NCBI RefSeq assembly: GCF_000003815.2
Contig: NC_049983.1
Span: forward strand, 24,848,617 to 24,912,616
Direction: 5' to 3'
From: Branchiostoma floridae
Taxonomy: Eukaryota; Chordata; Leptocardii; Amphioxiformes; Branchiostomatidae
DNA length: 64,000 nt
The translations under genes were made by a program, and so were the position numbers. This document shows positions 17,565-47,461 of this stretch, piece after piece. The notes under the pieces are model-generated. The model had not been told where the DNA came from, made no database searches, and saw only the letters and a list, made by a program, of their open reading frames with translations. Numbering within the stretch: position 1 is the first letter of the stretch; each line of letters opens with the position of its first letter.

Positions 17565-20500
17565 ATGTTCTGCCACGGGTGTAGCGGGTGGACAAAGGAA
17601 GGCGACAACTTCTGCACTCATTGTGGGGACCGTTTTACGGAGAGGGGTCCGGTGAGTCATGTCCGATTTTAGGAACATTTCCATTTTCTATCCTGATCTT
17701 TCTCCCTGCCAAAAAGAAACCTCAATCATTGCTTACTAAAACGCAAGACTGTATTTCAACCTCCTAACAATCATTGATTTTACTGCTGAGTTAATTGTTT
17801 ACTTTGGTGTTGCTAAGGTTCACACAAAAGACTGGCCATATGAAAGAGGTGCATGCATCTCAGGTAACATAAAAATGAAAGTGAAAGCATTTATGTTGTA
17901 CTGAACGTTTGCCCTGTTATAAGCATATGAAGCAAACCAGTACACATTTTATAGTCTTTAGTTTCTCTTTCTAACAATTCGACTTTATTTGGAACGTCTT
18001 CAAGAGCAATACACCTTTCTAGAAATGCCAAACTCTTTTATAAGTTCCACTGATTCACATCTAAAACAACTCATACCCCCCTCCAAAAAGGGATGGGCGT
18101 AGTAAGCACCATACAACGTTACTAGAAACCACTATTGATACTTATCTATGATAACCTCCCCTTTACATACACGTGAGGGCATGGCATCACTGTAGGTTCT
18201 CACCTACCTTTCTCCATTGTGATTTTCATCAATGTTGTTCACTCAGGTTTTGCTACGTTCGGATCACAGCCCTGAACAGTCTCCGTTGGTCATCGCCAAA
18301 CAGACGGCAGAAGCGTGTAGAGAGTTAAAGCCAGCTCTGAGTGCGAGTGAGCAGGCTAATGTTGATTTGCAAGAAAAGTATGAACAGGAAAGTCAGGCTA
18401 TTGTTGATTTGAAGAAGAAGTATCATCAGGCTAGCCAGGATAACCTGGCTTTGCGAGAGACGCACAAACGAGCTCATCAGGATAGTAAAGACCAGCATGA
18501 GCAGGCTTTACAGGCTAAGGAGAAGGAGCATAAAAAGGATATCCTTGCTATGAAGACAAGGCATAGGCTGGCCATATCAGCTAGTGAAAACAAGCAGAGA
18601 CAAGCTATGTTGGATAGTGAAAACAAGCACAATCAGGCAACACGTGCTTTAAATAACGCTCAGAAGCGGCTTGAACAGGATTTGAAGGCTTGGAAAGAGA
18701 AGTGTAAGCAGGCTAAGCAGGTTAATGCTGATTTGTGGGAAAAGCATCAGCGAGCTTTGAAGATTATTGACGAACAACATGAGCAGGTTCTGCTGGCTAG
18801 GGAAAATGAACAGGCTGTGCTGACAGAGGAGCACAAACAGGCTATCCTTACTATGGAAGAAAGACATAGGCTGGCGATTGAGGCTCGTGAAGAACGGCAT
18901 GAGCGGGTTCTACTGGCTAGAGAAAGGGAGAATAAACAGGCTCTGCTGGCTATTGTAAGGGAGCATAGAGAGGCCATCCTTGCGATGGAAGATATGCATA
19001 GGTTGGCCATGGAAGCTAATGAAGAACAGCATGAGCAGGTTCTACTGACTAGGGAAAAGGAACAGGCTCTTCTAACAGAGGAGCACAGACAGGCTATCAT
19101 GACTATGGAAGATAGACATAGGCTGGCCATGGGGGTTAATGAGGAGAGACATAAACAAGCATTACAGGCTAGTAAAGACCAGCATGAGCAGGTTCTGCTA
19201 GCTAGGGAAAACGAACAGGCTGTGCTGACAGAGGAGCACAAACAGGCTATTCTGGCAATGGAAGAAAGATATAGACATGCCATGCATGCTACTGAAGAAC
19301 AACATAAGCAGGTTCTACAGGCTAGAGAAAACGAGAATAAAGAGGCTCTGTTGGCTATTGTAGGGGAGCATAAAAAGGCCATCGTCACTATGGAAGAAAG
19401 ACATAGACTGGCCATGCAGGCAAGTGAAAATAGACATAAACAGGAATTGCAGGCTAGTAAAGAAAAGCTTGAGCAGGCCAGGGGAAGTAAACTGATAGAA
19501 GAGCACAAACAAGCTATCCTGGCAATGGAAGATAGACATAGGCTGGCTGTGCAGGCTAGTACCGACATACACCGACAAGATTTATTGGCTAGTGAAGAGA
19601 GGCATAGACAGGCCTTGTTGGCTAGTGAAGATAGGCAGAGACAAGCTTTGTTAGTCAGTGAAGAGAGGCAGAGACATAACATTGAAAAGTTGAAGCATGA
19701 TTTGCTGGCTATTGAAGATAAGCTTAGAGAGACTCTGCAGACAATTGATGACAGACAGACCACGCCGGCGGAAGGACCAACCGGTGTAGACAAGCGACAG
19801 GACAGTACATCGTCTTCCCTATCCCAACCCACCCCTGCCTCAGGCACAGCCGGTGCAGACCAGTGGCAGGGCAGAGCACCTTCTCCCCCACCCCAGCCCA
19901 CTCCTGACGCCGTTACAGCCAACGAGGAAAAACCGTCGCATTGGAAGAAGGTAAATGTTGACAGTTGTGCGGGGTTTCCGTGAAATCAATTGTAATGCGT
20001 ACGTGGGCGTACATCAAACTATAATGCATGTAAAGATAAGATAGTCTAATGTAAATATTTCTTTCCGCAGGAAGTACATTGTGAGTCGCGTATAGGTCAC
20101 AAAGACATCGCAGCTTTCCTTCGTAACCAAAGAGGGCGCCTTACAGACGGAGACCGCAGGCTGCTTCAGCACGCAATGACACTCGTCAACAAAGAGTCCA
20201 AGTTTTGTAACCACGCCGAGATCACGGTGTACGGAGAGCTGATGACAGCAGTTTTCTACTCCGGAGAGAAAACCAACAAATATGTGATACGACTGGTAGA
20301 GGGTAAACCAATTGACGAAGTAGACGAAAGGGGGTGGGGTAAAACAGCGCGCGACACCGCACAGGGCACCTTTGATTGGTGTAAAGACTCGGTTCGTGAG
20401 GCGGTTAGTGGGGCGGCTGGGTCTGCCGTTGGTCAAATGATTGGTGGAGCGGTTGGTGGTTTGTTTGGAGGTTTTACAAAGGCAATAAGATGGGGGGAGG

Positions 20501-20595
20501 GGAAGCAAAATGATAAAAGGAATGGACAAAATGATGGACAAAATAATGGACAAAATGATGGCAAAGGCACCAATAGTTCTAACTCTTCCTCCTAG
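17565..20595 (+). CDS. Zinc ribbon - long coiled coil - array C-terminal module protein
   Basis: Exons 17565-17651, 18247-19950, 20071-20595; phase-0 introns, about 771 aa. Exon 1 (29 codons) is a zinc ribbon, CHGC...CTHCGD. Its paralogue at 22814 starts three codons earlier; here that ATG is ACG, so the second Met is used. Exon 2 (568 codons) is an almost unbroken Glu/Gln/Lys/Ala-rich coiled coil with about 52-55-residue internal repeats (EEHKQAILAMEDRHRLAM type), ending in a Pro/Ser/Thr-rich linker. Exon 3 carries the shared module (DIAAFLRNQ, DRRLLQHAMTLVNKES, ITVYGELM, TNKYV) and a glycine-zipper-like tail (GAAGSAVGQMIGGAVGGLFG) that could enter membrane or self-associate, then an Asn/Gln/Gly repeat tail. 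I do not recognise the module. The long coiled coil suggests oligomerisation; the kappaB promoter suggests inducibility. Confidence 0.85.
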
Positions 20596-21058
20596 CTAGC
20601 ATTATTAAGTGGTTTGCGATCATGTCCATGGATGAAAAGGACTGAAATAGTATCCAGGCTGCGTCTAATCAACCGACAGCAGCAAGAACCGTAGTCTTGC
20701 AGTGTTCAAAGCTGCATTTACATAACGTTACGTATTTTAAGCATCTTTGTGTATACCACGAGTTTATATACGTATGCAATATAAATCTTACGTATGATTG
20801 TTATTTTGTAGTGACCATATCTCCTTTGCAATTTTATGCATTAATGTATTACGATGACGACATGAACAATTATAGCTTGTAGAAAATTTTGCAGTTAGAT
20901 CAACATAGAGATAAAGTCAAGACCGCTTATGCTGTGCAAAAGTCGCGTGTTTCGTTTTTTGGTGTGTGTGTGTGTGTGCGAATCACCACACACAACCAAC
21001 CCTAAGGTTAAACTGTCTAACGTGTAATATGCAGAGGACTCATTGAGTTCAACTCATA

Positions 21059-21064
21059 AATAAA
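21059..21064 (+). terminator. Candidate poly(A) signal AATAAA
   Basis: 464 bp after the stop at 20595. The sequence after it (GCGACTTGGGTGTG...GCAACAGGT) is duplicated after the paralogue's AATAAA at 25.9 kb, so gene and 3' flank were copied together. Confidence 0.5.
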
Positions 21065-22240
21065 CAATTCATGCGACTTGGGTGTGAACTGCAGTTTGAC
21101 GCAACAGGTACCTTAACCTAAGGGCACAACCCGCCGCACGTGCAATCTGTCCGTACATTTTTGGGGGAGGCCACGTCCGCCACGTATTTCTAAAAACGTT
21201 CAGACTGTACAGCAAAGCCGCATCGCGATGGCACACAAAGTTTTGCCTGCACGTAAAGTTCTACAGCCTGTCTGCGTGCTCCAAAATCCGTCGGATTCCC
21301 TACGAGTTCGTACGGAGGCGGAACTTACCACTTACGGATCCCAAAAGATTGCCCACGTTTTGGCACGTAGACAGCACGTATTTTCACGTAAGGCGGGTTG
21401 TGCAAAGGAGTTGGCAAAAGGCCAGGGATTTCCAATACGTCATAGCCACACACGAACCCCTCTTAAGGTAAACAGAGTTATTATGTCTGACATTTTATAG
21501 CTACATCCATCATGTTACAAAAGACCAACTTGTTTGGGGGGAGGGTGTAACATGATACAAAAAAGCGCTTCAATACGAATAACCAGTAAGTAATATATTT
21601 GGCTCAAAATTTAAAAAAAAAAAATCCCCGATGTGGTCTTTGCACTGAAATTTATGCTGCAAAACAAATAAGATAGACAGCATCTACAAATAACACTTGT
21701 ACTTGTATGTAGTAAATTTCATAGTTGTTTGTTTGTTTGTTTGTTTGTACTACATACCCGGTAAACCTCCTCATGGCGTAACACACCAGGTTTGTATAGA
21801 ACAGTACAAGCTGCCAGACAGATGTATTTATTTGACTCACTCACACCGGGAAGTACCACTACCATTTTCATTAAGTGTGGTGAATTCTTTTACGTGCTCG
21901 AGGTGCGCACGTGACTATACAAAAAGTGATGAGTCACTCTAAATATGTACTCGACTAGTCAACCCACTTTGACCTATGACATCCTAAAGACTATAATGGT
22001 GCGATATCATAACTAGTCCTATTGATTTAAGAGAGCAGAGAGCTAGTATAACGATAAACAAAGGTTTCACAGATCACAAAAATGTTGACAACCTTATAAT
22101 CACTAACATTCGATGTACAGTTTTGAACTTAACCTTCTCGGCAAGCACTATCTAACGTTAAATGCCATTGTACGAATAAACATGAATTGGAAGGTAATGA
22201 GCCAGAAAGTGTTTTTTTTTTCAGAATGATGAGGGGCAAG
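21065..22240. other. Intergenic; duplicated downstream flank and a weak kappaB-like site
   Basis: 21080-21480 matches 26075-26190 (GCGACTTGG, CAACAGGT, GGCAAAA(T/G)GCCAGGGA, AGGTAAACAGAG). The 9-mer GGGATTTCC at 21425-21433 stands where the other copy has a perfect GGGACTTTCC (26126). A short (GTTT)n lies at 21727-21747. No gene is supported. Confidence 0.5.
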
Positions 22241-22243
22241 AAC

Positions 22244-22650: not shown

Positions 22651-22729
22651 GGGACTTTCCATTACGCGTTGTTTGCGTGTCTGGTTGGGTGTAATTGCAT
22701 AGTCTGATCCCTGCTCCTTGGGACATTCT
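22651..22729 (+). promoter_or_regulatory. kappaB promoter of the 22.8-25.5 kb gene
   Basis: GGGACTTTCC at 22651-22660 (163 bp before the ATG) and a decayed second site GGGACATTCT at 22720-22729 (94 bp before). Spacing matches the other cassettes. Confidence 0.65.
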
Positions 22730-22813: not shown

Positions 22814-25485
22814 ATGGCCTCGATGTTCTGCCACGAATGTAGCAAGTGGACGAAGGAAGGCGACAACTTCTGTACTCATTGTGGGAACTGTTTCACAAAG
22901 AGGAGCCCGGTAGGACATACCTCATGTCAGAAACACTCGTTTTTTTATTGTGACAATTTCCCCTGCTAAAAGGATATCTAAAACGCACGTAAATATTGTA
23001 CTGTTGTCTTATATTCATTGATTGTTCTTCTCATGTAAGGCTGGTCATGGCTAACACAAATTTAAAGAAGAAGACTGTTACACTTTGGCTAACATAAAAT
23101 GAAAGTGAAAGCAGCTCAGATGATACTCTCCTGAACCTTTATTCTGCTACCGGCATATCAAGAAAGGACCGAACACATTTTAAAGTCACTAGTTCTCTTC
23201 CTATGTATTCGACCTTTTGAACAACATTTTTCAATGTTTTTTTTAATCGGGTTAGCAACACTTATTTAATAAGGTCAACAAATGTAAATCTGAAACAACC
23301 CATATCCAACCCCTTACCAAGAGACGGAAACGTACCTACATCTTTCAAGACGGGCAAACATTAAAACCAAACTAGGGCATAATTCTTGATACCACTCGAT
23401 GATATACTCCCGTATACTGTTCATACATGTCGGTGGTCAATACAGCCGGTTTCACCTACCTTCTCCATGTTGATTTTCATCAAATTAATATTGCTGTTCG
23501 CTCAGGTTTCGCTGCCGTCGGATCACAGCCCCACACAGGCTCCATTGGACACCAGCAAACAGATTGCAAAAGCGTGTAGAGAGTTGAAGCAAGCTCTAAG
23601 TGCGAGTGAACAGGCTAAGGTTGCTTTGCAAGAAAAGTATGAGCAGGCCAATCAGGCGAATGTTAATTTGCAAGAAAAGTATGAGCAGGCCAATCAGGCG
23701 AATGTTGATTTGCAAGAAAATTTTCAGCAGTCTAAGCAGGCTAACGTTGATTTGAAAAAGAAGTATCATCAGGCTAGGCAGGACAACCTTGCATTGCGAG
23801 AGAAGCAAAAACAAGCTCTGCAGGATACTGAAGAGCAGCATGAGCGGGCTTTACAGGCTAAGGAGAAGGAGCATAAAAACGATATCCTTGCTATCAAGAA
23901 AAGACATAGGCTGGCCATGTCGGCTTGTGAAAAGAAGCAGAAGCAAGCTTTGTTGGATAGTGAAAACAAGCACGAGCAGACTAAACGTACTTTAAATGAG
24001 GCTCAGAAGCGGCTTGAACAGGATTTGAAGGCTACGAAAGAAAGGTGTCAACAGGCTAAACAGGTTAATGCTGATCTGCGGGAGAAGCACCAGCAAGCTT
24101 TGAAAACTATCGAAGAACAGCATGAGCAGGTTCTACTGGCTAGAGAAAGGGAGAATAAACAGACACTGCTGGCTATTGTAGGGGAACATAGAGAGACTAT
24201 CATTGCCATGGAAGATAGGCACAGGCTGGCCATGGAAGCTAGTGAGGAGAGACATAAACAGGAGTTGCAGGCTAGTAAAGAACAGCTTGAGCAGGCTCTG
24301 CAGGCCAGGGAAAGTACACAGGGCATGGAAGATAGACATAGGCTAGCTATGCAGGCTAGTGCCGACAGACACAGGCAAGATTTGTACGCTAGTGAAGAGA
24401 GGCATAGACAGGCCTTGATGGCTAGTGAGGAGAGGCAGAGACAAGCTCTGTTGACCAGTGAAGAGAGGCAGAGGCAGAACATTGAAAGATTGAAGCAAGA
24501 TCTGTTGGATATGGTAGATAAACATAAGCATGATTTGCTGGCTATTGATGAGAAGCTCAGACAGGCTCTGCAGGCTAGAGAAAGACAGACCACGGCGGCG
24601 GAAGTACCAACCGGTGCAGACCAGCAGCAGGGCAGCCCGCCTTCCCCACCCGCCCCTGACGCCGGTACAGACCAGAGACAGGACAGACCACCTTCTCCCC
24701 CTCCCCAGTCTACCCCTGCCGCCGGTGGAGTTCAAATCGAGGTGCAGGTTGGGCCACCGGTACCGTCACCTTGGAAGAAGGTAAATGTTGAAGTTGTTTA
24801 AAAGTGCGGGGTGTGCATAACATCAATTATAATGTCTAGGTGGTGAAAGGCTTGGCCTTCCAATACCGTGCCCTAAAATTCCAAGTTTCCAAAAGTCTTC
24901 GGGACTATCTTTGCCTTCTGCCAGTTCGTTGTAACGTTATGTGGCACGGTTAAAATGATTTACTAAACTTCAGTGCAGTGCCACATTGCCCTTGTCTATC
25001 TGGAAGCAAAGCAAACGGACTATACATCGAACCAAGTACACTAGTTTTATGTACACATTTTTTTGCAGGACATACAGTGCGATCCGCGTATTGGTCACGA
25101 AGACATCGCAGCTTTCCTTCGAAACCAACGAGAGCGCCTTACAGACACAGACCGCAGGCTTCTCCAACATGCCATGACACTCGTCAACAAAGAGTCCAGC
25201 TTTTGTAACGACGCGCAGATCACAGTGTACGGAGAGCTGATGACAGCAGTTTTCTACTCCGGGGAGAAAACCAACAAGTATGTGGTACGACTGGTAGAGG
25301 GTAAACCAATCGACGAAGTGGAAGATAGGGGGTGGGGTAAAGCGGCACGCGACACCGCCCAAAGCGGCTTCAATTGGGTGAAAGATTCAGTTCGCGGGGC
25401 CGTTAGTGGGGCGGCTGGGTCTGGCGTTGGTCGACTGATTGGTGGTTTGTTTGGTGGTTTTACAGATGCAATAGGATGGAAGTAA
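22814..25485 (+). CDS. Zinc ribbon - coiled coil - array C-terminal module protein (paralogue)
   Basis: Exons 22814-22909 (32 codons), 23506-24780 (425 codons), 25069-25485 (138 codons plus stop); phase 0 throughout, about 595 aa. It has the same design as the 17.6 kb gene. Zinc ribbon CHEC...CTHCGN; coiled coil with tandem LQEKYEQANQANV units near its start and HRLAMEAS-type units later, shorter by about 140 residues; Pro-rich linker; shared module ([51 protein letters not shown]). The tail GAAGSGVGRLIGGLFGGF is a glycine-zipper-like hydrophobic segment ending in AIGWK. The two genes are a recent tandem pair, as flanks, introns and 3' ends align. Start chosen at the first Met of MASMFCHEC; the second Met is the only one kept in the paralogue. 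Confidence 0.87.
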
Positions 25486-26125: not shown

Positions 26126-26135
26126 GGGACTTTCC
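26126..26135 (+). promoter_or_regulatory. Exact kappaB site GGGACTTTCC
   Basis: It lies in the duplicated downstream flank. A short frame from ATG 26143 to an AG|GTAAAC donor follows only eight bases later. I cannot attach it to a gene; it may be an orphan promoter. Confidence 0.5.
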
Positions 26136-27371: not shown

Positions 27372-28409
27372 ATGAGCTGCAGAAACTGCCGCTCACGGGT
27401 CGAGCCACATTATAACTACTGTGACTTCTGTGGCGAACCTCAAAGAAAGATAACGGCACCATGTGAGTATACTTTGCTTTCAGAATAGCCTGACATTTCT
27501 TACCCAGGGCCGTGCTAGTAAAGAATGGTATTTCACGATGCGCCATCAGCCCTTTAAGAAGTGATACATGTAGTTGTGAGTGCGCATTGTTCTTGCATCA
27601 ACAAATCAGTTTTCTGGCAATATTGTTCGTTCGATGAATACAGTGAATTAGATAGGAAAGCCTTTATTTTTTATCACAGCCGCAATGGCGCCGAGGTACT
27701 GTAGCAGGTGCGGACTGCGTGCGACCGAAGATGACAATTTCTGCATCAACTGTGGGAATCGCTTCAGAAGAGGTCACATTTTGGTGAGACATAATTATTT
27801 TCTTAACAGTTACTAAAAGAGAATATCATGAAGCAGATAAAGAGTGACGCCGGAAGATTAACTGCATCCACGAGAAAATATGGGCGAATTAGCCCATGTA
27901 AATTCATGTTCTTTTAAAGAAGATTTAAAATCCGGTCTGAACTAAGATCAGAATTTTTTTTAATTTATTTTTTCTGTAATAATGATTAAACGACACATTT
28001 GATCCCATATTTCTTACAGGTTAAAGACGTGGACTGCTCCCCATACATCCACCACACTGACATCTCAGGTTTCCTGCACGACAATTACGACCGCCTGGTG
28101 GACACGGATCGCAGACTCCTACAGGAAGCCATGACACTCGTCACCAGGGAGGATTCGTGGGTTATGAAGAACGCGCAGCTCACGGTGTACGGAAAGCTCA
28201 TGAAGGTGGTGTTCTTCTCCAAGGCGCGAACCAACAAGTACGTGGTGCACTTGACCGGGGAGGATCGCCCAACCCAGCAGGTGGAGGAAAAGGGATGGAA
28301 GCTGAAGGTGCGAGACGGCTTCAAGACGGCCTGGGGCTGGATGAAAAATGCAGCCGGCAAGGCACTGGGGGCTCTCTCAGGTGTGGCAAGGCTAGCAATC
28401 GGATGGTAA
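27372..28409 (+). CDS. Double zinc ribbon - array C-terminal module protein
   Basis: Exons 27372-27462, 27680-27783, 28020-28409; about 194 aa. The first junction splits a codon (T|CC, Ser); the second is phase 0. Exon 1: CRNC...CDFCGE; exon 2: CSRCG...CINCGN, also beginning near its own ATG (27685), so transcription could start at either. Exon 3 is the shared module in its short form: VDCSPYIHHTDISGFL, DTDRRLLQEAMTLVTRED, QLTVYGKLMKVVF, RTNKYVVHL, EKGW, then an amphipathic/hydrophobic tail ending LAIGW. There is no coiled coil. Two CxxC...CxxC units in tandem suggest a duplicated first exon kept in frame, an early step in swapping N-terminal modules. Function unknown; it may use the ribbons for ubiquitin or protein binding (inference only). 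Confidence 0.85.
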
Positions 28410-29854: not shown

Positions 29855-30095
29855 TAAGTCAATGTTTAGGCGCCTCTATAGGTGTAGTCTTGCTGTCCTG
29901 TAAGTAAATATTTAGGCGTTAGACATGTTTAGATAGATTTAGGTTTGCTGCCATTTAAGTCCATGTTTAGCGCCTCTTAACTATAGGTTTAAGCTTGTTG
30001 TCATATGCTGAAGTCAATGTTTAGGCGCCTCAATAGGTTTAGGTCTGATGTCCTGTATGTCAATTTTTGGGCGCCTCTATAGGTTTAGGCTTGCT
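29855..30095. repeat. Minisatellite grown from the 3' end of the minus-strand gene
   Basis: About four to five degenerate units of 50-60 bp with (A)TGTTTAGGCGCCTCTATAGG and TTTAGGCTTGCTG(TCCTG). The unit nearest 30.09 kb is the actual coding end (…KPKPIEAPKN stop on the minus strand), so the array copied the stop-codon region into the 3' UTR. Confidence 0.7.
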
Positions 30096-32061
30096 GCTGC
30101 TGCTGCCTCCGAAAGGCCACCTGAAGAAACCTTTGCTGCTCCTGTCCGTACAGGTGAGTCTGATCTCGTCCTGTCCGTCCAGGTGAACCACGAACTTGTT
30201 CTCGGCCTTCTCCGCCCGGACCGTGTAGTCGTTCCCGTACATGTCATAGATCACCAGCTCCGCGTTACGCCACACCTGGAGATGATACAGAGATGGTCTA
30301 ACCTTAGACAGTTTCCTATAACCCTGACCCTGGACCTAACCCTAACCCCAACCCTAACCCTAACCATAACCATAACCCTAACCCTTCCCCGCCCGGACCG
30401 TGTAGTCGTTCCCGTACATGTCATAGATCACCAGCTCCGCGTTACGCCACACCTACGGAAGATACAGAGATAGTCTAACCTTAAACACTTTTCTATCTCA
30501 ATGGGCTATGGATCGTTTCCAACGTATAAGAAGCTGTACCCACATTGAATGTTTGGCCATGATATTATCCATTATGGAAACACATTGGAATTCAACGCTA
30601 GATCCAAGACGAATGGGAGCCGTCGGCATTGTAGCTTATATTCTAAGTTGGCAAAAGGAATCAACAAACAGTGCTAATGTTGAATTTTATCAACACAGAT
30701 GAACACTCTCTGTGATGGGAACCTTTGACTTTGTGCATAATGTTATTTACAGACTGGGACTTTTAAGCAAACCAAATTGTGCAAGATGCGTGCACAATAA
30801 GAAAATATAACAGCATCTTCAAGCAGGAGCACCCTTGTACCTCTGGCTTTTCTCTCTCCAGTTCCGTGATGACCCTCTGTAACATCTGCCTCAGCACCGC
30901 CTGGCGCTCATTGTCCTCCGTACCCTCGTTCCCGACATGCTTCACGATCAGCTTCCCCAGAACGACCTTGTTGATCTCCTGAACCTCGACCTTTCACGAA
31001 ACATAATTGAGAAAAATTGTGAAAATTTGCACAGTGGGCTACACACATATCATTTACGCACTGAGACTGCAAATACGTACAGCGAGCCGTAAGCTACGGG
31101 CCAGTAAGACACAAGTGCTAGAACTACTAAGGGGAACCTATCATAAGATACCTAGAATTGTAGAGTCAGTATCATGTAGCCACATAACTAAATCGATACA
31201 TTGACTGATTTCATTCACCATCTAGTGTCCTGGTGTGGACTAGTAATGTAACACTTCAGAGGACACAACCGCTTAGCGAACATGAACATGTATTGTTGCG
31301 AGTATGGCGTCGGTATGCACATTCATATAACGGTCCAATGAAGTTGAAAACTAGCACTTAACTCCGGCTAGGGACGCTATCTGATACTCCGGGACGTTCA
31401 ATGGAGGTCACCCGAGTTTAGAAGATCCACATCTCCAGCCATTAAAGGACCCAACGCACCATTATCGAAAAGAGTAGGGGTCCGTTCCAGGGTGAGTGGA
31501 TCAAAGCCTAATGTGTGACGTATCACAATAGACTGTAGGTTAATCGTTGTGTTAGATAGTAAACTGCCTTTATCATTATGCAGTTTTTACTAATCCCTAT
31601 TCATCATCACACAAAGCACGAACAAGCCGATCTCCAATTTGATCTTTGTTATAGAAATTAGTTGGATTAAGTCTGACCATATGTAATGTATTGCAATTTT
31701 TAAATTGTAATACATTACATATGGTCAGACTTAATCATGCATGTAATTTTAAAAAAAATATCTATTTAAAAGGAACATAACGGAGCACTGTTTCAACATT
31801 TGTCTTCCTGAAAAAGCTATCATGCAGAAGCTATACAGATGTTTGTACACTGTCGAACAATGCCCCATTGCAGCCTTCCCCGATTCACCTGTATGTGTAC
31901 ATGTGTGTGTAAAGACATGTACGGTAAATTTTAAAACAGGTGGTGACGTAGGTTCATGAACGGTGTCTCAGGACTCAGCAGAAGCCACGAATAAATTGAA
32001 CACAAACCTCGTTGTTGTGCGAAATGGTCTTTTGTCCCGAGGTTACCATTAGATTTCCCAT
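30060..32061 (-). CDS. Minus-strand short protein: MGNLMV leader plus divergent array module
   Basis: Exon 1 32061-32008 (18 codons, MGNLMVTSGQKTISHNNE), exon 2 30990-30841 (50 codons, VEVQEINKVVLGKLIVKHVG...RQAVLRQMLQRVITELEREKPE), exon 3 30275-30060 (71 codons plus stop, VWRNAELVIYDMYGNDY...AENKFVVHLDGQD). All junctions are phase 0 with GT-AG ends; 139 aa. Aligned with the plus-strand genes, this is the same module (LLQE...TxE / (V/W)(K/R)(D/N)A(Q/E)(I/L)TVYG / TNKYVVHL) but split by an intron before the WxNAEL strand and strongly diverged. The tail is FFRWPFGG plus a Ser-Lys-Pro stretch, not Gly-zipper. Exact kappaB sites lie 143 and 228 bp 5' of the ATG. It has at least nine sister copies of exon 1 across the locus but only one intact exon 2/3 set. 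Confidence 0.72.
30321..30386. repeat. Interstitial telomere-like (CCCTAA)n tract
   Basis: Imperfect CCCTAA/CCATAA units in the intron between exons 3 and 2 of the minus-strand gene, sandwiched between the true exon 3 and a partial copy of it. Confidence 0.85.
30387..30452 (-). pseudogene. Truncated duplicate of exon 3
   Basis: Repeats the first about 21 codons of exon 3 (VWRNAELVIYDMYGNDYTVR) with its AG acceptor intact (30453-30454 on the minus strand), then runs into the telomere-like repeat. It could be used as a cryptic exon giving a truncated product. Confidence 0.7.
31665..31736. repeat. Near-perfect 72-bp hairpin
   Basis: GATTAAGTCTGACCATATGT on the left and its exact complement at the right, arms of about 33 bp around an AT-rich centre. 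It lies in the first intron/5' part of the minus-strand gene. Probably a small MITE. Confidence 0.75.
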
Positions 32062-32203: not shown

Positions 32204-32298
32204 GGGACTTTCCACTGATGTCTAAAGTTAATCCTGGCAAAGAAATGACTTGTGAATGGTAGGGGCCGTGTTATTGAAATTTAACCCTGGGACTTTCC
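32204..32298 (+). promoter_or_regulatory. Two exact kappaB sites 5' of the minus-strand gene
   Basis: GGGACTTTCC at 32204-32213 and 32289-32298, i.e. 143 and 228 bp upstream of the minus-strand ATG at 32061. No plus-strand exon is visible beyond them, so here the pair seems to serve the minus strand. Confidence 0.65.
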
Positions 32299-32639: not shown

Positions 32640-32693
32640 CTCATTGTTGTGAACGATGTTCTTCTGCGCCGAAGATACCATCAAGTTACCCAT
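32640..32693 (-). CDS. Orphan intact minus-strand first exon (MGNLMVSSAQKNIVHNNE)
   Basis: 54 bp, ATG to a phase-0 GAG|GTGTGT donor. No matching exon 2/3 lies between here and the complete gene at 32.06 kb, so it could splice into the shared exon 2 at 30990 as an alternative first exon, or be an orphan. kappaB at 32803 lies 110 bp 5'. Confidence 0.5.
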
Positions 32694-32802: not shown

Positions 32803-32812
32803 GGGACTTTCC
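32803..32812 (+). promoter_or_regulatory. Exact kappaB site GGGACTTTCC
   Basis: Start of a truncated cassette. Inverted CCAAT (TTTGATTGG, about 32845) follows as at 35.9 kb, but the second kappaB position reads AGGTCTTCC and the plus-strand exon has been lost where the next cassette begins. Confidence 0.6.
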
Positions 32813-32960: not shown

Positions 32961-33003
32961 CTGATTGTTGTGCACGATATCTTTGTGTCCCGAAGTTACC
33001 CAT
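32961..33003 (-). pseudogene. Relic minus-strand first exon (11-bp deletion)
   Basis: ATG and the CAG|GTGTGT donor are kept, but only 43 bp remain of 54, shifting the frame. 279 bp head-to-head from the plus ATG at 33282. Confidence 0.6.
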
Positions 33004-33119
33004 GATGACTTCGTGGTTAGGACTAGTCTCAGTCAAATGGCTCTAGCTCTCATGTAGAAAGATAAATCTTCAACTTTGGCACAGGTCTAAAAATAGTTGG
33101 GGAATAACGTCTATGGTCA

Positions 33120-33192
33120 GGGACTTTCCATGATGCATGTCTGGGTTGATTGAAATTGTATGGTGTACCCCCTGCTAGCCCAGGGACTTTCC
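33120..33192 (+). promoter_or_regulatory. Dual exact kappaB promoter of the 33.3 kb gene
   Basis: GGGACTTTCC at 33120-33129 and 33183-33192, 162 and 99 bp before the ATG. The stretch after the second site (AAGCCAGTCACACCTGTGCTG through CAGATCATTTCTGTCACCACCG) is nearly identical to that before the 36488 gene. Confidence 0.7.
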
Positions 33193-33281
33193 GCTTCTAG
33201 AATTTTCGGAAAGCCAGTCACACCTGTGCTGTAGATTGCACCTAACGCTAGTAACAGATCATTTCTGTCACCACCGAAGCA

Positions 33282-33949
33282 ATGGGTAATGCTGAGAGTG
33301 CCAGTGAAGATGAGTCAGCAGGAAAAGTTTTTTTGGTGAGACTTGATTTCAATACTTTTTATCAGATAAGTATGCATTTGCTTACTATTGCTATTGGCGA
33401 TTTTTGGTTAATGAAGTAAAGTGAAAAAGGCGCCTGAATATTTAAAAAATACAGTACCAAACCCGTGGCGGCAGAACAACAGGAAGACAGTTCTGCATTT
33501 CAGACTGAAAATCATCATTGGAAACGTTGAACAAGAAGGCCATTATTTCCTTACAGGGGGAAGAAGTAGACTGCTCCCCCAACATCCACCACTAAGATAT
33601 CGGCAGGTTCCTGTATGTCAACAAAGACCGCCTATCGGAGAAGGACCGCAAGCTTCTACAGGAGACCCTGTCACTGGTCACAAGCGAGAATCAGTGGGTG
33701 TGGGAGGACGCCAAAATCACCGTGTATGGCGTGAACTTGCGAGCAGTTTTCTACGCCGGCGACAGGACCAACGAATTCGTCGTGCATCTTAACTCGTCGG
33801 ATCAACCGACCCATGTGACGCAAGCGAGGGGGTGGCGTCTGTGCGTCAGGGACGGCTTCAAGAAGGTCTGGGGGTGGCTAGGTTCTGCTGTTGAAATAAT
33901 AGCTGGGTCCCTTACAGGCCCTTTGGCCAAGTTGGCTATTGGCATGTAG
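33282..33949 (+). pseudogene. MGNAES-leader array-module gene with premature stop
   Basis: Exon 1 33282-33335 (MGNAESASEDESAGKVFL, GT donor) and exon 2 33557-33949, phase 0. Exon 2 encodes VDCSPNIHH then TAA at 33593-33595, where the sister gene at 36.7 kb has GAC (HDDIGKF). Beyond the stop the module is intact (LSEKDRKLLQETLSLVTSEN, ITVYGVNLRAVF, RTNEFVVHL, ARGW...WGWLGSA...LAKLAIGM). Leader and promoter are intact, so this may be a young or polymorphic null allele, or a sequence error. The MG-N-x-E-S start fits the N-myristoylation rule (Gly-2, Ser-6). Confidence 0.8.
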
Positions 33950-35866: not shown

Positions 35867-35953
35867 GGGACTTTCCATGACGTGACTGTCTGGCTTTTGA
35901 TTGGACGAAACTGTTTCGGTGAAACTTATTAAAAATCGGGGTGGGAGCTTTCC
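35867..35953 (+). promoter_or_regulatory. kappaB cassette in front of a dead zinc-ribbon exon
   Basis: GGGACTTTCC at 35867-35876, inverted CCAAT (ATTGG, 35900), GGAGCTTTCC at 35944-35953: 167 and 90 bp before the mutated start at 36034. Same geometry as live genes. It may still drive the intact minus-strand exon at 35761. Confidence 0.65.
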
Positions 35954-36033
35954 AGTTTTTCCACAGCAAGTCTAACCAGCCACACTTGTTGATGCAGATA
36001 ACTCAACCGACCATTTCTGTCACTACTGGTGCC

Positions 36034-36087
36034 ATAGTTTTCTGTAGCAGGTGTGGGAAAGATGTCAGTGAATACGACAACTTCTGA
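36034..36087 (+). pseudogene. Zinc-ribbon first-exon relic
   Basis: Encodes VFCSRCGKDVSEYDNF and then TGA where the second CxxC should follow; the ATG is ATA. It resembles the zinc-ribbon exon of the 27.68 kb gene (CSRCG...DDNF). Confidence 0.75.
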
Positions 36088-36308
36088 AAATTAGAAAAGT
36101 AGAGTATCTTCCTTACGTTCACATACAAGTTGAATATATGCTAGTCGTTACAGGGGTAATTAAATGGGTGTTTGTGTGTTTGTTTGTTTATTTTGAAACA
36201 CCTGGGTAGCCTATTCAGTGCCAATACACTGGTTTTCGATAGGGCCCAGTTTCACAAATACATACATGGAAATAAAAACAACTTACTTACAAGTGTGGTT
36301 TAGAGTCA

Positions 36309-36404
36309 GGGACTTTCCATTACTTGCTGTTTGCATGTCTATCTGTGGTTGGGTGAAATTGTATGGTATGATCACTACCTTGCATTTATATATTGGGACT
36401 TTCC
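36309..36404 (+). promoter_or_regulatory. Dual exact kappaB promoter of the 36.5 kb gene
   Basis: GGGACTTTCC at 36309-36318 and 36395-36404, 179 and 93 bp before the ATG at 36488. The minus-strand exon normally found about 100 bp 5' is missing here; the sequence at 36100-36160 matches only the cassette part next to it. Confidence 0.7.
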
Positions 36405-36487: not shown

Positions 36488-37106
36488 ATGGGCAATTCTG
36501 AGAGTGCCGGGGAAAAGGAAAGTGGGACTTGGGTGAGACATTATTATAATCTTTTTTATTGAATAAGTATATATTTGCTTTCTATTTCAGACGCTTTCTG
36601 GTCTATATCGTAAAGTACTAAAAGCTTGTAGCTATGTCATGGAAAGCAGGTAAACAGTTCTGTATTTTTCACTGAAAATTATCATAAAATTTTAGGCAAC
36701 GTTGGCCAATGTTTCCCTCCAGATGGAGAAAGTAGACTGCTCGCCTTACATTTGCCACGACGATATCGGCAAATTCATCAATGACCGCAAAGGCAGCCTA
36801 TTGGAGAAGGACCGCAGGCTTCTACAGGAAACCCTGTCACTGGTCACAAGCGAGAATCGATGGGTGTGGAGGGACGCAGAAATCACCGTGTATGGCGTGA
36901 ACTTGAATGTAGTTTTCTACTCCGGCGACAGGACCAACGAATTCGTCGTGTATCTTAATTCGGCGGATAAACCGACCCATGTGACGGAAGCTAGGGGGTG
37001 GCGTCTGTGTGTCAGGGATGGCTTCAAGAAGGTCTGGGGGTGGCTAGGTGATGCTGTAAAGGTAGCTGGGTCCCTCACTGGCCCTTTGGCCAAGTTGGCT
37101 ATATAG
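36488..37106 (+). CDS. MGNSES-leader (myristoylation-like) array-module protein
   Basis: Exon 1 36488-36532 (15 codons, MGNSESAGEKESGTW|GTGAG) and exon 2 36723-37106; phase 0; 142 aa. Gly-2 with Ser-6 fits the N-myristoyltransferase consensus, so membrane anchoring is plausible. Exon 2 carries [82 protein letters not shown]. It ends LAKLAI, two residues short of the sister gene, because an ATAGCT insertion brings the stop forward. The 33.3 kb pseudogene is its closest relative; the two came from a duplication of promoter, leader, intron, module and 3' end together. Confidence 0.85.
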
Positions 37107-39947: not shown

Positions 39948-40926
39948 ATGGGTTCCGGAGAGAGTACCGTGAAAGACGAGTCAACAGAAGGAAGGAATTT
40001 GGTGAGACTTTAAGTCCTTCGTTTTAACTCAATAAGCATATATGCATTGCTTTCTATTGCAAGTGTTTTCTGGTTGGTGTCGTATAGTTCTGCAAGAAGG
40101 CATTTAAACAGCAGAAACATTGAGCCATGCTGTGTGAAAACAGAAAAAAAAACAAAAAAAAAAACATTCTAAGCATTTTACAATGCAAACTATCATTTCA
40201 AAAAATGGAACAATGGAGCACACCCTCCCCTATTTCCCCTACAGCAGGATGAAGACGACTGCTCCACAACTGACACTTGGTATGATGCTGAGAGTACCTG
40301 CGAAGAGTCAGCAAGAAATGGGATTTTGGTAAGACTTTGTTATATTTTTACTTTCTATAGCACACGGTACTAGTACGGTGTGTGGTGAAAAAAATAGTTC
40401 TGTAGGGCAGGCACATTATTATAAGCTTTGTGAGATCTCCCTGTGACATGTTGCTGTAGTTGGGGAAGGGTCCCCGGCGTACCTGACCGTACAGTGTATG
40501 AGTAGATAAAAAGGCTCGGGGCAAACCAAAACATCTAGCAAGACTTTGGGACAGTTCCTTGGTTCCTTCGAGAAATCTTTGTAAAGAATGTCTCACATCA
40601 GCTCGCATGACCTCAGCACTAAAGTCCAGATCTGCTCAACCAGTATCCGCATGATAAGTGAGGAACGTTTGAGTCAGCAGACTTTTTTAGGCATGCCACG
40701 TCACAAATTGTATAAAACAAATACCATCTTTACTAGAATCAATTCCTTTATAATTCTATAGAGAGATTTTACCTAAAATGATTGTAGGTTCATTTTCTAT
40801 ATTTTTCTATATGCTTTGTTTCCAGCTGACCACAAAAAATGACATTTACAATGCCTTAGAATTACCAGCTTGTATATGTCAGGTACAGGCATTTGTCTTC
40901 AAGAAAAACATAGGCATATACACACG

Positions 40927-40978: not shown

Positions 40979-41725
40979 CTCACACACAAACATTCACACA
41001 CACATACACAAACACAAACACACACGTATACAGGCACACTCGCACACACACAAACACACACACACAAACACACAAAGACACACACAGACACACACCCACA
41101 CACAAACATACACACACACGTACACAAACACACACGTACACACGCACAGTCATCACACACACACAAACACACAAACACACTTACACACACCAAAACATTC
41201 TGCTAGGTTTTGGGACACTTTTCAGTGTCGTTTTTTGGCTCGTGAAATACGTTTAAAGATAGTAAAAATGTGTCAAACAGCTCGCAACCATTCTTAGAAT
41301 CCCTCTCACTTCTACAGGACTTGCAGGTGGACTGTTTCCCACGCATTCATCACAGCAACATCGCGGCGGTTCTCTATAAATACCACGGCACTCTTTCCGA
41401 CGTGGATCGCAGGCTACTGCAGGAGACCATGAAAGTCGTCACAGAAGAAAGGCGGCACTGGGTCATGGAGGATTCACAAATCACAGTGAACGGAAAAAAC
41501 CTGAGGGTGGTGTTCCAATCCGGCGAGAAGACCAACAAGTACGTGGGGCACCTGGACGGACAAGATCGCCTGATCCAACGAGTGGATGAAAAGGGATGGC
41601 GGCTTTGCTTCTACGATTGCATCAAGGATTTCTTTATGAAGATCTGGAGCTGTATAAAAGAAGTTGTTAAGATGGCTGGAGCTATTGTAGGTGTTACTAA
41701 GAAGGCCATTGGGATGTGTGGCTAA
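39948..41725 (+). CDS. MGSGES-leader array-module protein with duplicated acidic exon
   Basis: Exons 39948-40001 (18 codons, [18 protein letters not shown]), 40245-40328 (28 codons) and 41318-41725 (135 codons plus stop), all phase 0; about 181 aa. Gly-2/Ser-6 again fits N-myristoylation. The middle exon ([20 protein letters not shown]) looks like a second copy of the leader exon without its ATG, retained in frame. The last exon is the module: [68 protein letters not shown], then a Lys/Val/Ile-rich amphipathic tail ending AIGMCG. The large last intron holds a (CA)n tract. No kappaB pair is seen upstream, unlike its relatives. Confidence 0.78.
40918..41189. repeat. (CA)n microsatellite
   Basis: About 270 bp of interrupted CACA/CAAACACA repeats in the last intron of the 39948 gene. 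Open frames here on both strands are artefacts of the repeat. Confidence 0.97.
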
Positions 41726-43439: not shown

Positions 43440-43748
43440 GATGACGGCTTGAGGACCGAGTAAGGCCGTTTTCTGGTCGCCGTTTCGCCGTTTTCACCTG
43501 TTCCCGTGACCGTCTCCTCGCTTCCGGCTTACCGTAGTTAGAACTGCAGGTGAGGTCAAGGGTCGAAGGGCTTAGCGTTGTAGCAAGTTACGACGGAAAC
43601 CCCTTTGATGAGTGAAGGCTGGGTTTGCACTCAAGGCTATCGTTATGATGAATCTTACAATTCACTTCGAAATTAGCGATCGCAAAATTGATATTGAAAA
43701 AAAATCCGTAGCCTCTTTGTCCATATAAAGTGCGACGAATGCACTTAT

Positions 43749-43759
43749 GGGGATTCCCC
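43749..43759. promoter_or_regulatory. Palindromic kappaB site GGGGATTCCCC
   Basis: Perfect 11-bp palindrome 310 bp 5' of the minus-strand exon at 43439; conserved context with 38.84 and 8.44 kb. Confidence 0.6.
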
Positions 43760-44507
43760 GTCCCAAAATACAAAGACACGTCATAGGGGAAAAACGTCCA
43801 AGTGTGTAGTTGGCACCCAACGCCTGTGTGATACTGTTCGCTATCACCTTTTTGAGTCAATCATTTCATTTACACGTAAGTAGCATAGGTAGTTTGATGA
43901 ACATTCATTTTACGATCTTTTCTGGGATGTCCACCAAATAACGAGCTTGGCCAGCCATTGTTTGTATGAAGCCCTTCGCCCACCATTTCATTTTGTTCGT
44001 CTGCACCTGAGTTTTTAGCCATGTGAAACTGTTTTTTTGGCTTTCTACAGCTACTTTTGATCAAGGAAATGGTTGTCGGGGGCCTTGTAAATCGGCAAGA
44101 GTCGAATTTTCTGAGACTGTGCTGTATTCAGCATAACGTTAGTCAAAGCGTAAATGCAGCCTTTAGTGCTATCGTCTGCCAGGGAGCTAGTCCTAGGAAT
44201 CGCAGTCACGGCTCTGTTGGACCGTAGCCATTTTATTTGTAACTCCATGTGACTATTGTTTGAAGGCAGTGCGTTCTAAGTGACATGAGATATCTTTATG
44301 GCCTTAACCTCAGGTGATGTTGTCAAAACGGCAGTAGTGGCAAAATATTAGACATCGCAGAACAAGGGGCATTTCCAAACATAACAGAAAACCTTACAAA
44401 ACCACAGGATATCAATTTAAATAGCTCATTGTGTTTTCATAATAAAATATCTACAGTTCGCTTCTAATAAAATCTGTCATTTCGTGACTCCCTTGGGAAC
44501 TCAGTCT

Positions 44508-44617
44508 TATGTTATGTTATGTTATGTTCTGTTCTGTTCTGTTCTGTTCTGTTATGTTATGTTATGTTATGTTATGTTATGTTATGTTATGTTATGTTAT
44601 GTTATGTTATGTTATGT
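44508..44617. repeat. (TTATG)n pentanucleotide microsatellite
   Basis: About 22 units, with an internal block of TTCTG variants. Confidence 0.97.
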
Positions 44618-44828
44618 TTTAAACAACAAAACGGTTGTCAAGAGGATGGTAAATTGTCACATTTATTGAATCAGATTTATTTGATATATAGCCCAATGTT
44701 GAAGGATCGCTGGATATGAAAAAACGGCTGTGAAAAGTCATGGCTGGCTCCCAGGGTATCATGTTCAGTTGTGAAAGCCAGTGAAAGAGTTAAGTTACCA
44801 TCACCCAGGTGCCCTTTTGCTTGTTTTC

Positions 44829-45897
44829 TTCACCCCAACCTAACTCCTTCTGCTTTTCCCCCTACCCGTTCTCCTTTTCCCCCGGACTTCTCCTTAACCC
44901 CCGCTGTACTTCTGCTGTGCCCCCGTCCTTCTTCTTGGCCCCCGGTGTACTTCTGCTTGCCCCCCGCCCTTCTGCTTAACCCCCAATGGCCGCCGTCAAC
45001 CCGAATTTCACGTAGTCGACACGAAAATCGTTCAGAAAGCAACAAAAACGGTCGCGCCACGGAACATGAAATAGCCTATTCTCAATGACACATTCTGGAC
45101 CATCTTTCTGCCAAGTGGCGCTTCACAACTCCTTCCCAGTCTGAACTGAAAAAGCTCGCCCTCTCGGTGAAGGGCGTATGCATCCGCCCCGTCAGCATCG
45201 GGTACTCACACGAAAGTCGTGCCTAAACACCCTGCACGGCAACGATACACGGTCTCATATAGCCTATGGTCTGGCAAACAATCTTGGCCACCTCTCTACC
45301 AAGTGGCGTCGTACAAATCGCGCTCAATCTCGAGAATACTTCTGCAAGTCGGGTGAGAAGCGGTTTGGAGAGAGCGGTAACAGCTATCGCCAGAATTGCG
45401 CAATAGTCCATATAGCCACTCGAGCCGTCCATGATCCAAACCGCTTCCCAACCCAAGACCATAGGATATATGAGACGTGTATCGTTGCCGTGCAGGGTGT
45501 TTAGGCACGACTTTCGTGTGAGTACCCGATGCTGACGGGGCGGATGCATACGCCCTTCACCGAGAGGGCGAGCCTTTGAAGTAAAGACTGGGAAGGAGTT
45601 GTGAAACGCCACTTGGCAGAAAGGTGGCCCAAAATGTGTCATTGAGAATAGGCTATTTCATGTTCCGTGGCGCGACCGTTATTGTTGCTTTCTGAACGAT
45701 TTTCGTGTCGACTACGTGAAATTCGGATTGACGGCGGCCATTGGGGGGTTAAGCAGAAGGGCGGGGGGCAAGCAGAAGTACACCGGGGGCCAAGAAGAAG
45801 GACGGGGGCACAGCAGAAGTACAGCGGGGGTTAAGGAGAAGTCCGGGGGAAAAGGAGAACGGGTAGGGGGAAAAGCAGAAGGAGTTAGGTGGGGGTG
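44829..45897. mobile_element. Foldback element with about 440-bp inverted arms
   Basis: Left arm about 44829-45272 and right arm about 45457-45897 are inverted copies (CCTAACTCCTTCTGCTTTTC / GAAAAGCAGAAGGAGTTAGG; GGCAACGATACACG / CGTGTATCGTTGCC), around a loop of about 185 bp that itself repeats a piece of the arm (CCAAGTGGCG). The outer arms have purine-rich GGGG(C/G)AAGCAGAAG minisatellite units. The frames inside are not convincing genes. Confidence 0.8.
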
Positions 45898-46247
45898 TTC
45901 TTGACTTCATGACGTTTTCACTCCCCCAGGATCGACCACCAGCAACTTTGAGTTCAGCCTCAATTTGTGGCTCCCACATTACCTCTAGAGCAACGTTGGG
46001 AAACCAAAAGGTTACTTGGAGGTCATCCGTGTACTCAAGGAGGTTTTAGTCTCCACTATAACCTCCTTGGTGTACTCGAGGACACATGGGAGGTACGACA
46101 TTTGACATATGTTCTCAAGGTGTTGTTTAATGTAGGAATCTTAGGAGTGTGCCATTTTGACTCTCTGTACAAATAAACATGGACGTCTATCGCACTAATT
46201 TGTGTGTGTGTAACATCAAATAATCAAGTGTTCTTTTTGTCTTACAG

Positions 46248-47461
46248 GGCCACGTGTGTTCATCATCCACGCGGGAGAAGACAAAAGGCCATTTGTTTAC
46301 CCGCTTTTTAATACCCTCCGGCAGCAGGGGTTGACTAATAATGACATATTCTTAGATCAGGTTTCCATTTATACCGGTGACGTCATCAGGGACAGAATAA
46401 TCTCGGCCTTGTCAAGCGAAAGTTTAGAGCTTGCTGTCATTGTTGTCAGTGGATGGCTTCTAAACAAGCGCTACTGGCCTAAACTGGAGTATGAAACATG
46501 CCTGAAAAACAACAAAGCTATATTTCCCATTTGGCTTGATACTAACAAAGACAACTTTAACACATTTGGTAAGCATGTCGGTAGCTACTCCCCCACGCTG
46601 AAACAGCTGAGTGCATGGCGTGTGCAGCGCTGCGATGTTTCCTATCAGCTGCCAAATATCGCTGCTGAGATCATACGGCGACTCTCTAACGTAACCAACC
46701 TACAAAATAAAGTAAGTTCCACTAAAAATACTGTTCATCCTTCATTGTTCGTAACATACACATACATCAGATCATTTTCCAACGACGTTTTTAATCGAAG
46801 TATTTCAACGCAAAATTTACTTCAGCTTAATTTGCATATCCAAGCAATTTACATGATCACCTTAAAATCGGCCCATCTAAAGAATTTCATCTTGAATCAG
46901 ACTTGTAACCATTCAATTGTCATTGATACATTGTAACATGTATGGTTTAGTAATAGTTGAAATGCTTCATCAATGTTACATGCACCATATATACAATTAT
47001 GGTAAGTACATGTGCCATAAATACGTTCGATGCTTTCATTTGTACAGGAAGTGGCGTTCGAACGCACATTAGACTGTTCACCATGGATCGATCACAACGA
47101 CATCGCTGGCGTTCTTCGCAACTACTACGACCTCCTGGCGGATCCGAAGACTCGTCGCTTGCTTCTTCAGCAGACACAGACACTGCTCACATTAGAGACC
47201 CGGAGGTGGGTGTGGAAGGACGCCCAAATCACCGTCCACGGCCCCCGCATGGAGGTGGTGTTCTTCTCCGGCGACAGAACCAACAAGTACGTGGTGCACC
47301 TCGACGGGGATGATCGTCCGATCAACAGTGTGGTAGAAAAGGGTTGGCGCCTGTGGCTCACTGATGGCGTCTGGGCTGTTGTGACAGCCCCCTGGAGACT
47401 GTTAAAAGGGCTGGCTGGAGCTATCAGGGGCTCCGACAAAAAGGCTATTGAAAATGAATAA
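46248..47461 (+). CDS. TIR - array C-terminal module protein (5' exon not found)
   Basis: Exons 46248-46711 and 47048-47461. The first begins with an acceptor (TTACAG|GG, two bases of a split codon), so a short 5' exon is missing from the call. It encodes a TIR domain: RVFIIHAGEDKRPF, IFLDQVSIYTGDVI, LAVIVVSGWLLNKRYWPKLE. The W-P-K-L-E keeps the Glu four residues after Trp that is catalytic in SARM1 and plant/bacterial NADase TIRs. After a phase-0 GTAAGT intron comes the module: LDCSPWIDHNDIAGVL, TRRLLLQQTQTLLTLE, QITVHGPRMEVVFFSG, RTNKYVVHL, EKGWRLW, and a hydrophobic tail (WRLLKGLAGAI) ending in ENE. TIR links the unknown module directly to innate-immune or cell-death signalling. Confidence 0.85.

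Follow-up and report, generated by a model that had tools for sequence, protein, structure and literature searches.

The 64,000-nucleotide stretch of the Branchiostoma floridae genome analysed here (contig NC_049983.1, denoted C5, positions 24848617-24912616, in a 513-Mb genome; hereafter the window) contains a tandem array of genes whose terminal exons encode a common module of around 100 residues. Seven of these exons are on the + strand, at 20071-20595, 25069-25485, 28020-28409, 33557-33949, 36723-37106, 41318-41725 and 47048-47461, and they are the last exons of genes 1 to 7 in that order. All seven open at phase-0 acceptors, and six are uninterrupted. The exon at 33557 has an in-frame TAA (33593-33595), and this copy was aligned from 33596, i.e. 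downstream of its own stop. Compared with the first copy the modules are 37-81% identical with 23 invariant columns in the alignment, and they retrieve one another genome-wide by tblastn with E-values down to 1e-64. A first-pass annotation of this DNA had proposed a module shared by eight tandem genes, and for the seven on the + strand this is borne out. Two of its details do not hold. The sequence VDCSP is not present in every copy (it is VHCES at 20071, IQCDP at 25069, VDCFP at 41318 and LDCSP at 47048), and the gene at 33557 is not a plain intact copy. We refer to the module in this form as type A.

In the gene models, where splicing was inferred from AG/GT borders together with the reading frame, all exons join in frame at such borders; a first exon of the TIR gene (gene 7) was looked for and not found. 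All exons of genes 1-7 are on the + strand. Gene 1 begins with a zinc ribbon (17565-17651; MFCHGCSGWTKEGDNFCTHCGDRFTERGP) that gives sub-threshold zinc-ribbon matches and in which the CxxC pairs are directly visible. This is followed by a long repetitive coiled-coil-like exon of 568 codons (18247-19950; coiled coil by eye) and then by the module with a glycine-zipper-like tail. Gene 2 has the same organization, comprising a zinc ribbon (22814-22909), a coiled-coil-like exon (23506-24780) that is 74% identical to its counterpart in gene 1, and the module with a Gly-rich tail. In gene 3 two zinc ribbons (27372-27462 and 27680-27783) precede the module, which has a cationic tail. The two exons together exceed the cut-offs for Zn_Ribbon_1 (E = 9.5e-9, 35.2 bits with a cut-off of 25) and DZR (2e-8, 34.7 bits with a cut-off of 27.3), and the single zinc ribbons of gene 1, of upstream copy 1 and of the gene at 10664 fall under the cut-off. 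Genes 4-6 join a leader of the form MGxxxS to the module. The leader exons are at 33282-33335 (gene 4; MGNAESASEDESAGKVFL), 36488-36532 (gene 5; MGNSESAGEKESGTW) and 39948-40001 (gene 6); gene 6 has an additional exon encoding an acidic linker (40245-40328), and an amphipathic tail follows its module. A decayed zinc-ribbon exon, read by eye, lies ahead of gene 5 at about 36033-36090. Lastly, gene 7 joins a TIR exon (46248-46711) in frame to the module. The exchange of N-termini proposed at the outset thus appears sound as judged by frame and splice borders, the alternatives being one or two zinc ribbons, a zinc ribbon with coiled coil, MGxxxS leaders or TIR.

Just ahead of the TIR exon of gene 7, at 44750-45900 in the window, one repeat is present in two opposite arrays with near-mirror flanks, an arrangement resembling that in a large inverted repeat or a transposable element. 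The exon itself scores above the Pfam cut-off for TIR_2 (1.2e-8, 36 bits with a cut-off of 28). It matches seven PDB sequences, the best of which is 7uwg (7.5e-9), titled 'Molecular chaperone Tir'. In the match to the NAD(+) hydrolase AbTIR (8g83; 1.6e-8) its WPKLE is aligned to the WTNYE of AbTIR (W-x-x-x-E). The glutamate of WxxxE is the catalytic residue in TIR NADases, and the TIR version of the protein may hydrolyse NAD+. Further matches were found in PADLOC to ThsB (2.7e-8) and PDC-S66 (3.1e-15), and in NCBIfam to retron-TIR (9.8e-10, with a score far under the model cut-off). The exon can thus be aligned with TIR domains of bacteria (AbTIR, Thoeris ThsB and retron-TIR), including the W-x-x-x-E of AbTIR; in contrast to those systems, TIR is seen on only one gene of the present family. 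Genome-wide there are TIR matches at 59 places including the exon itself, of which 17 are on other contigs at 64-71% identity. By coordinates, none of the other 58 is beside a module. Since none of these other places has a neighbouring module, the exon has most likely been captured from a large TIR family.

A profile was constructed from 15 type A modules including the seven in the window, whose scores of 1.3e-59 to 1.8e-47 are high by construction. When it was compared with 1580 six-frame pieces of the window, a minus-strand exon that is absent from the profile was matched at 2.1e-4, and the next piece had an E-value of 2.2. The spliced minus-strand protein (30990-30841 joined to 30275-30060) was matched at 2e-7, where the best of 2000 shuffles gave 0.23. 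The ratio of non-synonymous to synonymous substitution (dN/dS) was 0.26-0.45 in four pairs of intact modules and 0.55 in one pair that included the stopped copy of gene 4, pointing to purifying selection on the module in the pairs compared. Three more type A genes are located on C5 upstream of the window, at 24838494, 24841337 and 24843345. The array thus extends beyond the window. Outside C5, type A genes were found on contigs C11 (one), C3 (one), C17 (one) and C18 (two), so that there are at least ten on C5 and at least five elsewhere. Extra partial matches lie near C11:9130757, which corresponds to the type B exon described below, and near C3:24480773. In a tree of the modules 9 of the 13 inner branches are open, and because of this the history of the head swaps is unreadable.

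The gene on the minus strand had been annotated as an eighth copy of the module, split over two exons. It is indeed homologous, but it is a diverged sister, which we call type B, rather than simply a split copy. One exon encodes the first half of the module (30841-30990) and the last exon encodes the second half (30060-30275), without a hydrophobic tail. There are two alternative first exons, at 32008-32061 (MGNLMVTSGQKTISHNNE) and 32640-32693 (MGNLMVSSAQKNIVHNNE), and a third, diverged copy at 32961-33003 that begins MGNFGTQR and is not in phase 0; all are on the minus strand. With the window minus-strand module as the query, its own family consists of two genes on C18 (52-53% identity) and one on C11 (52-60%), and in the C11 gene the intron is at the same position as in the window. 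Comparison of the A and B profiles using HHalign gave a probability of 97% with an E-value of 7.8e-11, both profiles being small. We infer that A and B are two diverged types of one module. The two C18 B genes have a dS of 0.301 and a dN of 0.065, indicating purifying selection.

All four B genes appear to have a short leader exon upstream, beginning with MGN or MGQ and joined in phase 0. The leaders are MGNLMV in the window, MGNLLI on C11 (located 3.6 kb 5' of the next exon), and MGQSMG and MGQSMS on C18. An N-terminus of the type MGxxxS/T follows the rule for N-myristoylation. This rule fits genes 4-6 (MGNAES, MGNSES and MGSGES) and one C18 B protein (MGQSMS), and the serine or threonine at position 6 is absent from MGNLMV, MGNLLI and MGQSMG. 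Three further features of type B sequences were observed. A decayed copy of the first half of the module, with a stop, is found in the window at 6337-6465 on the minus strand. In the window at 30319-30475, a TTAGGG array of telomere-like sequence (30319-30385) separates the last type B exon from a broken duplicate of the first part of that exon. On C18 a type B protein (C18 stretch L061, 1498-2712) runs on into several acidic Gly/Pro-rich repeats of around 25 residues.

Genes of the two types are found back-to-back. In the window the B gene (-) diverges from gene 4 (+, 33282). On C11 an A gene at 9124643 (-) diverges from a B gene at 9126168 (+). On C18 there are two such pairs, A at 10081613 (-) with B at 10085120 (+), and A at 10088475 (-) with B at 10090912 (+), so that the gene order is A(-) B(+) A(-) B(+); the first exons of the A genes on C11 and C18 are not established. 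There are thus four divergent pairs at three loci, and they count as three because the B genes on C18 share 86% identity with each other. From the start of gene 4 it is 279 bp to the outermost copy of the B leader, which is diverged, and 589 bp to the nearest intact copy. The division into A and B and the back-to-back pairing had been overlooked in the first-pass annotation.

The module had been described there as unrecognised, and for the modules scanned this is upheld; there was no match above the curated cut-offs in Pfam or NCBIfam, and none in PADLOC or PDB sequences. The Pfam scan covered 14 type A modules, of which 13 are intact and one is broken (upstream copy 2 was left out), and four type B pieces, i.e. 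the two C18 genes and two window exons. Three modules were scanned against NCBIfam, two against PADLOC and one against PDB sequences. For type A the Pfam matches were all sub-threshold and mostly to the tails (Romo1, C19orf12, Gly-zipper_Omp, Gly-zipper_YMGG, DUF3489, Peptidase_C8, DUF4995 and zf-CGNR). Those for type B were likewise sub-threshold (YflT, and UPF0270 at 0.0022), and a match of type B to GPS2_interact (1.6e-5, 25.7 bits against 27) was in low-complexity sequence. Pattern scans for bacterial or viral relatives gave 5 and 35 stretches, none of which was confirmed by tblastn; these scans used one and two short patterns, so that only close relatives are detectable. A tail of the IFI6/IFI27 (interferon-induced 6-16) kind was also considered. 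No match to PF06140 was found in the whole genome at E-values up to 1, in a search for which the controls were weak (1 of 14 matched, none over the cut-off), nor were there PF06140 matches when six tails were searched alone.

The module might be a divergent form of the TRADD-N domain, an RRM-like adaptor domain whose superfamily is expanded among amphioxus immune genes. In Branchiostoma the expansions have immune architectures (PMC8195603; for this and the other papers cited, statements refer to the part of each text that was available), and they resemble the present family in that a small alpha/beta immune module with varying partners has expanded in one lineage. However, there was no match to TRADD_N at E-values up to 10 among the modules of the Pfam scan. 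Moreover, two AlphaFold models predict helices followed by four strands in place of beta-alpha-beta-beta-alpha-beta, with low confidence (predicted local distance difference test, pLDDT, of 56 and 62), and the DED, WD40, GT4 and LRR partners of the lancelet proteins (PMC8195603) are not seen in the scanned exons. In the turn between beta2 and beta3 TRADD-N has a uS motif (PMC8195603); most copies of our module have an SG or AG pair close to what the models give as strands 2 and 3, which may or may not be equivalent to those of TRADD-N. We regard this identity as very improbable. Searching with the same low-confidence models in Foldseek gave no match at E <= 0.001 among 579 from the PDB and 1213 viral (best E-values 0.17 and 0.018). 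Because the pLDDT values are only 56 and 62, this is no evidence for a new fold.

The canonical NF-kappaB site GGGACTTTCC is present 11 times in the window, compared with 0.03 expected from shuffles, and a twelfth copy is 8.3 kb upstream of the window. After removal of low-complexity sequences it is the commonest 10-mer in the window, and none of 1000 permuted 10-mers occurs more than twice. The genome-wide background was taken from the count of the 12-mer CAGGGACTTTCC, which occurs 82 times in the genome and eight times in the 64-kb window where 0.010 would be expected; the reversed control occurs 30 times genome-wide. We note that this test was picked after the sites had been seen. For ten of the 11 sites an inferred start codon follows at a distance of 84-228 bp, and in one case it belongs to a decayed exon. 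On the + strand, sites at 17377-17386 and 22651-22660 are 179 and 154 bp upstream of the ATG of genes 1 and 2, and two sites at 36309-36318 and 36395-36404 are 170 and 84 bp upstream of that of gene 5. Another (35867-35876, +) is upstream of the decayed zinc-ribbon exon, while that at 26126-26135 (+) is 1.2 kb upstream of the ATG of gene 3. The leaders of the type B gene are similarly placed, including the diverged copy. Sites at 32204-32213 and 32289-32298 (both +) are 143 and 228 bp upstream of the first exon MGNLMVTSGQKTISHNNE, and that at 32803-32812 (+) is 110 bp upstream of MGNLMVSSAQKNIVHNNE. The sites at 33120 and 33183 lie within 33004-33281, between the start of gene 4 and the divergent start of the outermost copy of the type B leader. 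Two further sites of the palindromic form GGGGATTCCCC are present in the window, where 0.01 would be expected.

The 12 exact sites fall into six groups whose flanks are unrelated at the threshold used (one group of six, one of two, and four single sites). Within the site the alignment columns have 2.0 bits, and in the flanks they drop to 0-1.2 bits. Across the six groups, then, the 10 bases were either retained or acquired while the sequence around them changed.

A second element, GAAAGTGAAA, which we take to be of the IRF type, occurs three times in the window compared with 0.35 expected, a number reached by 1 of 100 shuffles. It is present twice between the A and B genes on C11 (0.04 expected) and twice between those of pair 1 on C18 (0.03 expected). 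From the genome count of the IRF-type 12-mer TGAAAGTGAAAG, 0.08 copies would be expected in the window and there are three. The AP-1-type sequence TGAGTCA is also in excess (21 in the window, 10.5 expected), and this is given no weight because five of the copies lie inside one repeat.

Taking these observations together, we read the genes as an NF-kappaB/IRF-inducible, intracellular immune family in which the A and B proteins would act as partners and the A proteins have exchangeable heads, and we assign this a probability of about 0.48. That the family is inducible and immune, as the first-pass annotation had proposed, we consider more probable than the statement as a whole. This part has cis-regulatory support from the 11 NF-kappaB-type sites and weaker support from the IRF-type elements at three loci, against which stands an unfavourable genome-wide control for the latter. 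A role of the tail as effector we consider less probable than the whole. On this reading Rel/NF-kappaB would switch on the genes on C5, and IRF those on C11, C18 and C5. The MGN and MGQ leaders would be N-myristoylated, bringing the B proteins and some A proteins to membranes, and zinc ribbons, coiled coil or TIR would give each of the other A proteins its own input or mode of assembly. A and B, as diverged versions of a single alpha/beta module encoded by back-to-back genes, would be partners, and the module could be the common joint, binding A to A or A to B. Cationic, amphipathic or Gly-rich tails of A may act on or dock to membranes, and tail-less B may be a regulator or co-subunit. The action of the family would be cell-autonomous and inducible by infection.

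A number of observations weigh against this reading. No GGGACTTTCC with up to one mismatch is present in 15.7 kb at C11 and C18, where a single match to a looser consensus lies inside the region of a C18 B reading frame, and none is present in the 1.5 kb flanking each of the five dispersed A copies. Putative promoters with canonical sites are thus a property of the C5 genes and not of the C11 and C18 members, and because the sites are missing from C11, C18 and the dispersed A copies, NF-kappaB control cannot be claimed family-wide. Even on C5, no exact GGGACTTTCC is found in the neighbourhood of genes 6 and 7. The stretch that was read at C18 pair 2 contains neither GAAAGTGAAA nor GAAANNGAAA, the short interval between the B gene and gene 4 has no IRF-type element, and of the three IRF-type copies in the window two lie in first introns that are paralogous, those of genes 1 and 2. 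Gene 4, the closest A gene to B in the window, is broken, and the B leader closest to gene 4 is diverged; type B was not detected near the type A copies on C3 and C17. A long or Gly/Ala-rich tail is missing from the C3 and C17 copies, from upstream copies 2 and 3 and from B, and the fold models are of the low confidence given above. Lastly, 8 of the 12 NF-kappaB-type sites share flanks with another (the groups of six and two), so the sites have in part been spread by duplication, and the 12-mer TGAAAGTGAAAG is found 660 times genome-wide compared with 739 for its reversed control, so it is not enriched generally.

The last two points, together with the tandem nature of the array, would fit an explanation in which the NF-kappaB- and IRF-type sites are passengers of duplication or have arisen by chance, and the genes are ordinary lineage-specific ones with no immune role. 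Such an origin would not account for an exact 10-mer maintained across six flank groups with flanks so much less conserved than the site, nor for the TIR and Death domains within and beside the array. We consider it improbable, and less likely than the adaptor role discussed below.

The tails bear on what an inducible immune family of this kind would do. The first-pass annotation had given the module a hydrophobic or Gly-rich tail, which it took to be membrane-acting or oligomerising. Such a tail is present in some copies, but it is not universal. Fifteen of the 16 tails carry a net positive charge, and there is an AI pair near the C-terminus of 9 of the 16 members. Compared with shuffles (p values uncorrected, over the 16 tails), the spacing of GxxxG gave p = 0.0025 for gene 1, 0.096 for gene 2 and >0.2 for the other 14; runs of small residues gave p = 0.02 for one C18 copy, and the hydrophobic moment gave p = 0.007 for gene 6 and 0.0135 for the C11 copy. 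A clear excess of GxxxG is thus found in 1 of 16 tails, and several members are without a long tail. The idea of a membrane tail possibly holds for some members, and is not a trait of the family.

The chief rival to our reading is that the proteins are signalling adaptors and not membrane effectors. The module would then be a homotypic interaction domain, linking TIR-bearing, zinc-ribbon or membrane-anchored subunits to downstream kinases, and the family would be a feedback regulator of NF-kappaB. Short proteins comprising a leader and the module (genes 4-6), the exchangeable N-termini, NF-kappaB-type promoters such as feedback genes have, and tails that are weak and not present in all members would be expected of adaptors. 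On the other hand, the frequent positive charge of the tails and their AI pair would be superfluous in a pure adaptor, and TIR is the sole known signalling domain found. We hold this role to be rather unlikely. The fullest form of our preferred reading, that of an inducible family with A and B partners, is similarly doubtful. It would be an undescribed animal immune system built from two diverged copies of a new domain. A would be the effector, equipped with a membrane tail and with interchangeable heads that sense or anchor, and B its myristoylated partner without a tail; the divergent pairs would be under Rel/IRF control, as an animal counterpart of plant head-to-head receptors. C5 would then be a place where one pair turned into a repertoire of shuffled heads.

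Adjoining the array in the window, at 10664-15246 (+), is a gene region with a zinc ribbon, a Death domain (1.6e-7), a long frame of PRGPxSxxSVGPADPGRP-like repeats and a stretch that by eye is ZU5-like. RING-like and NHL-like frames at 57400-63817 (+) resemble a TRIM-NHL gene (by eye). A run of N at about 3509-3940 (428 N in the window) lies beside a TPR-like frame at 4064-4564 (by eye).

The family may be compared with known systems of innate immunity. TRAM and TRIF are TIR-domain adaptors that offer a parallel, being small proteins of the cytosol that are myristoylated or contain TIR and that act around NF-kappaB and IRF. In the present family, by contrast, the MGxxxS leaders and TIR are on separate proteins, and what the proteins share is a different module. 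Novel combinations of TIR domains have been described in the innate immunity of amphioxus (PMC2575513), and these resemble our gene 7 in the fusion of TIR to lineage-specific partners. In contrast to what is described there, the partner here is a module for which no database name was found, and it is mostly free of TIR and lies in a tandem cluster with B partners. In a lancelet pangenome TIR (PF13676) is reported to be over-represented among dispensable genes (PMC12373286). In the available part of a poly(I:C) study of B. belcheri the induced genes are unnamed, and they could not be matched to the present genes (PMC5752451). In the open-licence literature we found nothing on amphioxus that joins TIR with a zinc ribbon, and nothing on an amphioxus immune gene cluster with NF-kappaB binding sites; on zinc-ribbon immunity in Branchiostoma and on head-to-head or divergent immune TIR genes in amphioxus there was no fitting title among the matches listed. 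Compared with TRADD-N, the present module has no sequence match, a different predicted order of strands (at low confidence) and other partners.

By analogy, the closest functional likeness may be to the paired plant receptors of the nucleotide-binding leucine-rich-repeat (NLR) family that are encoded head-to-head (PMC9528088, PMC11298796, PMC4246468), where two related immune genes are divergent and tightly linked. They differ in that no NB-ARC or LRR was seen here, the shared part is a module of around 100 residues, the genes are those of an animal, and the partnership is inferred.

The hotspot of NF-kappaB-type sites makes induction of these genes directly testable. If our reading is correct, the module would be a new domain family for chordate innate immunity, and the array would be a compact natural experiment in which a fixed module gains new front ends under inducible promoters. 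It would also mean that linked divergent partner genes, as found for plant receptors, arose in animals too.

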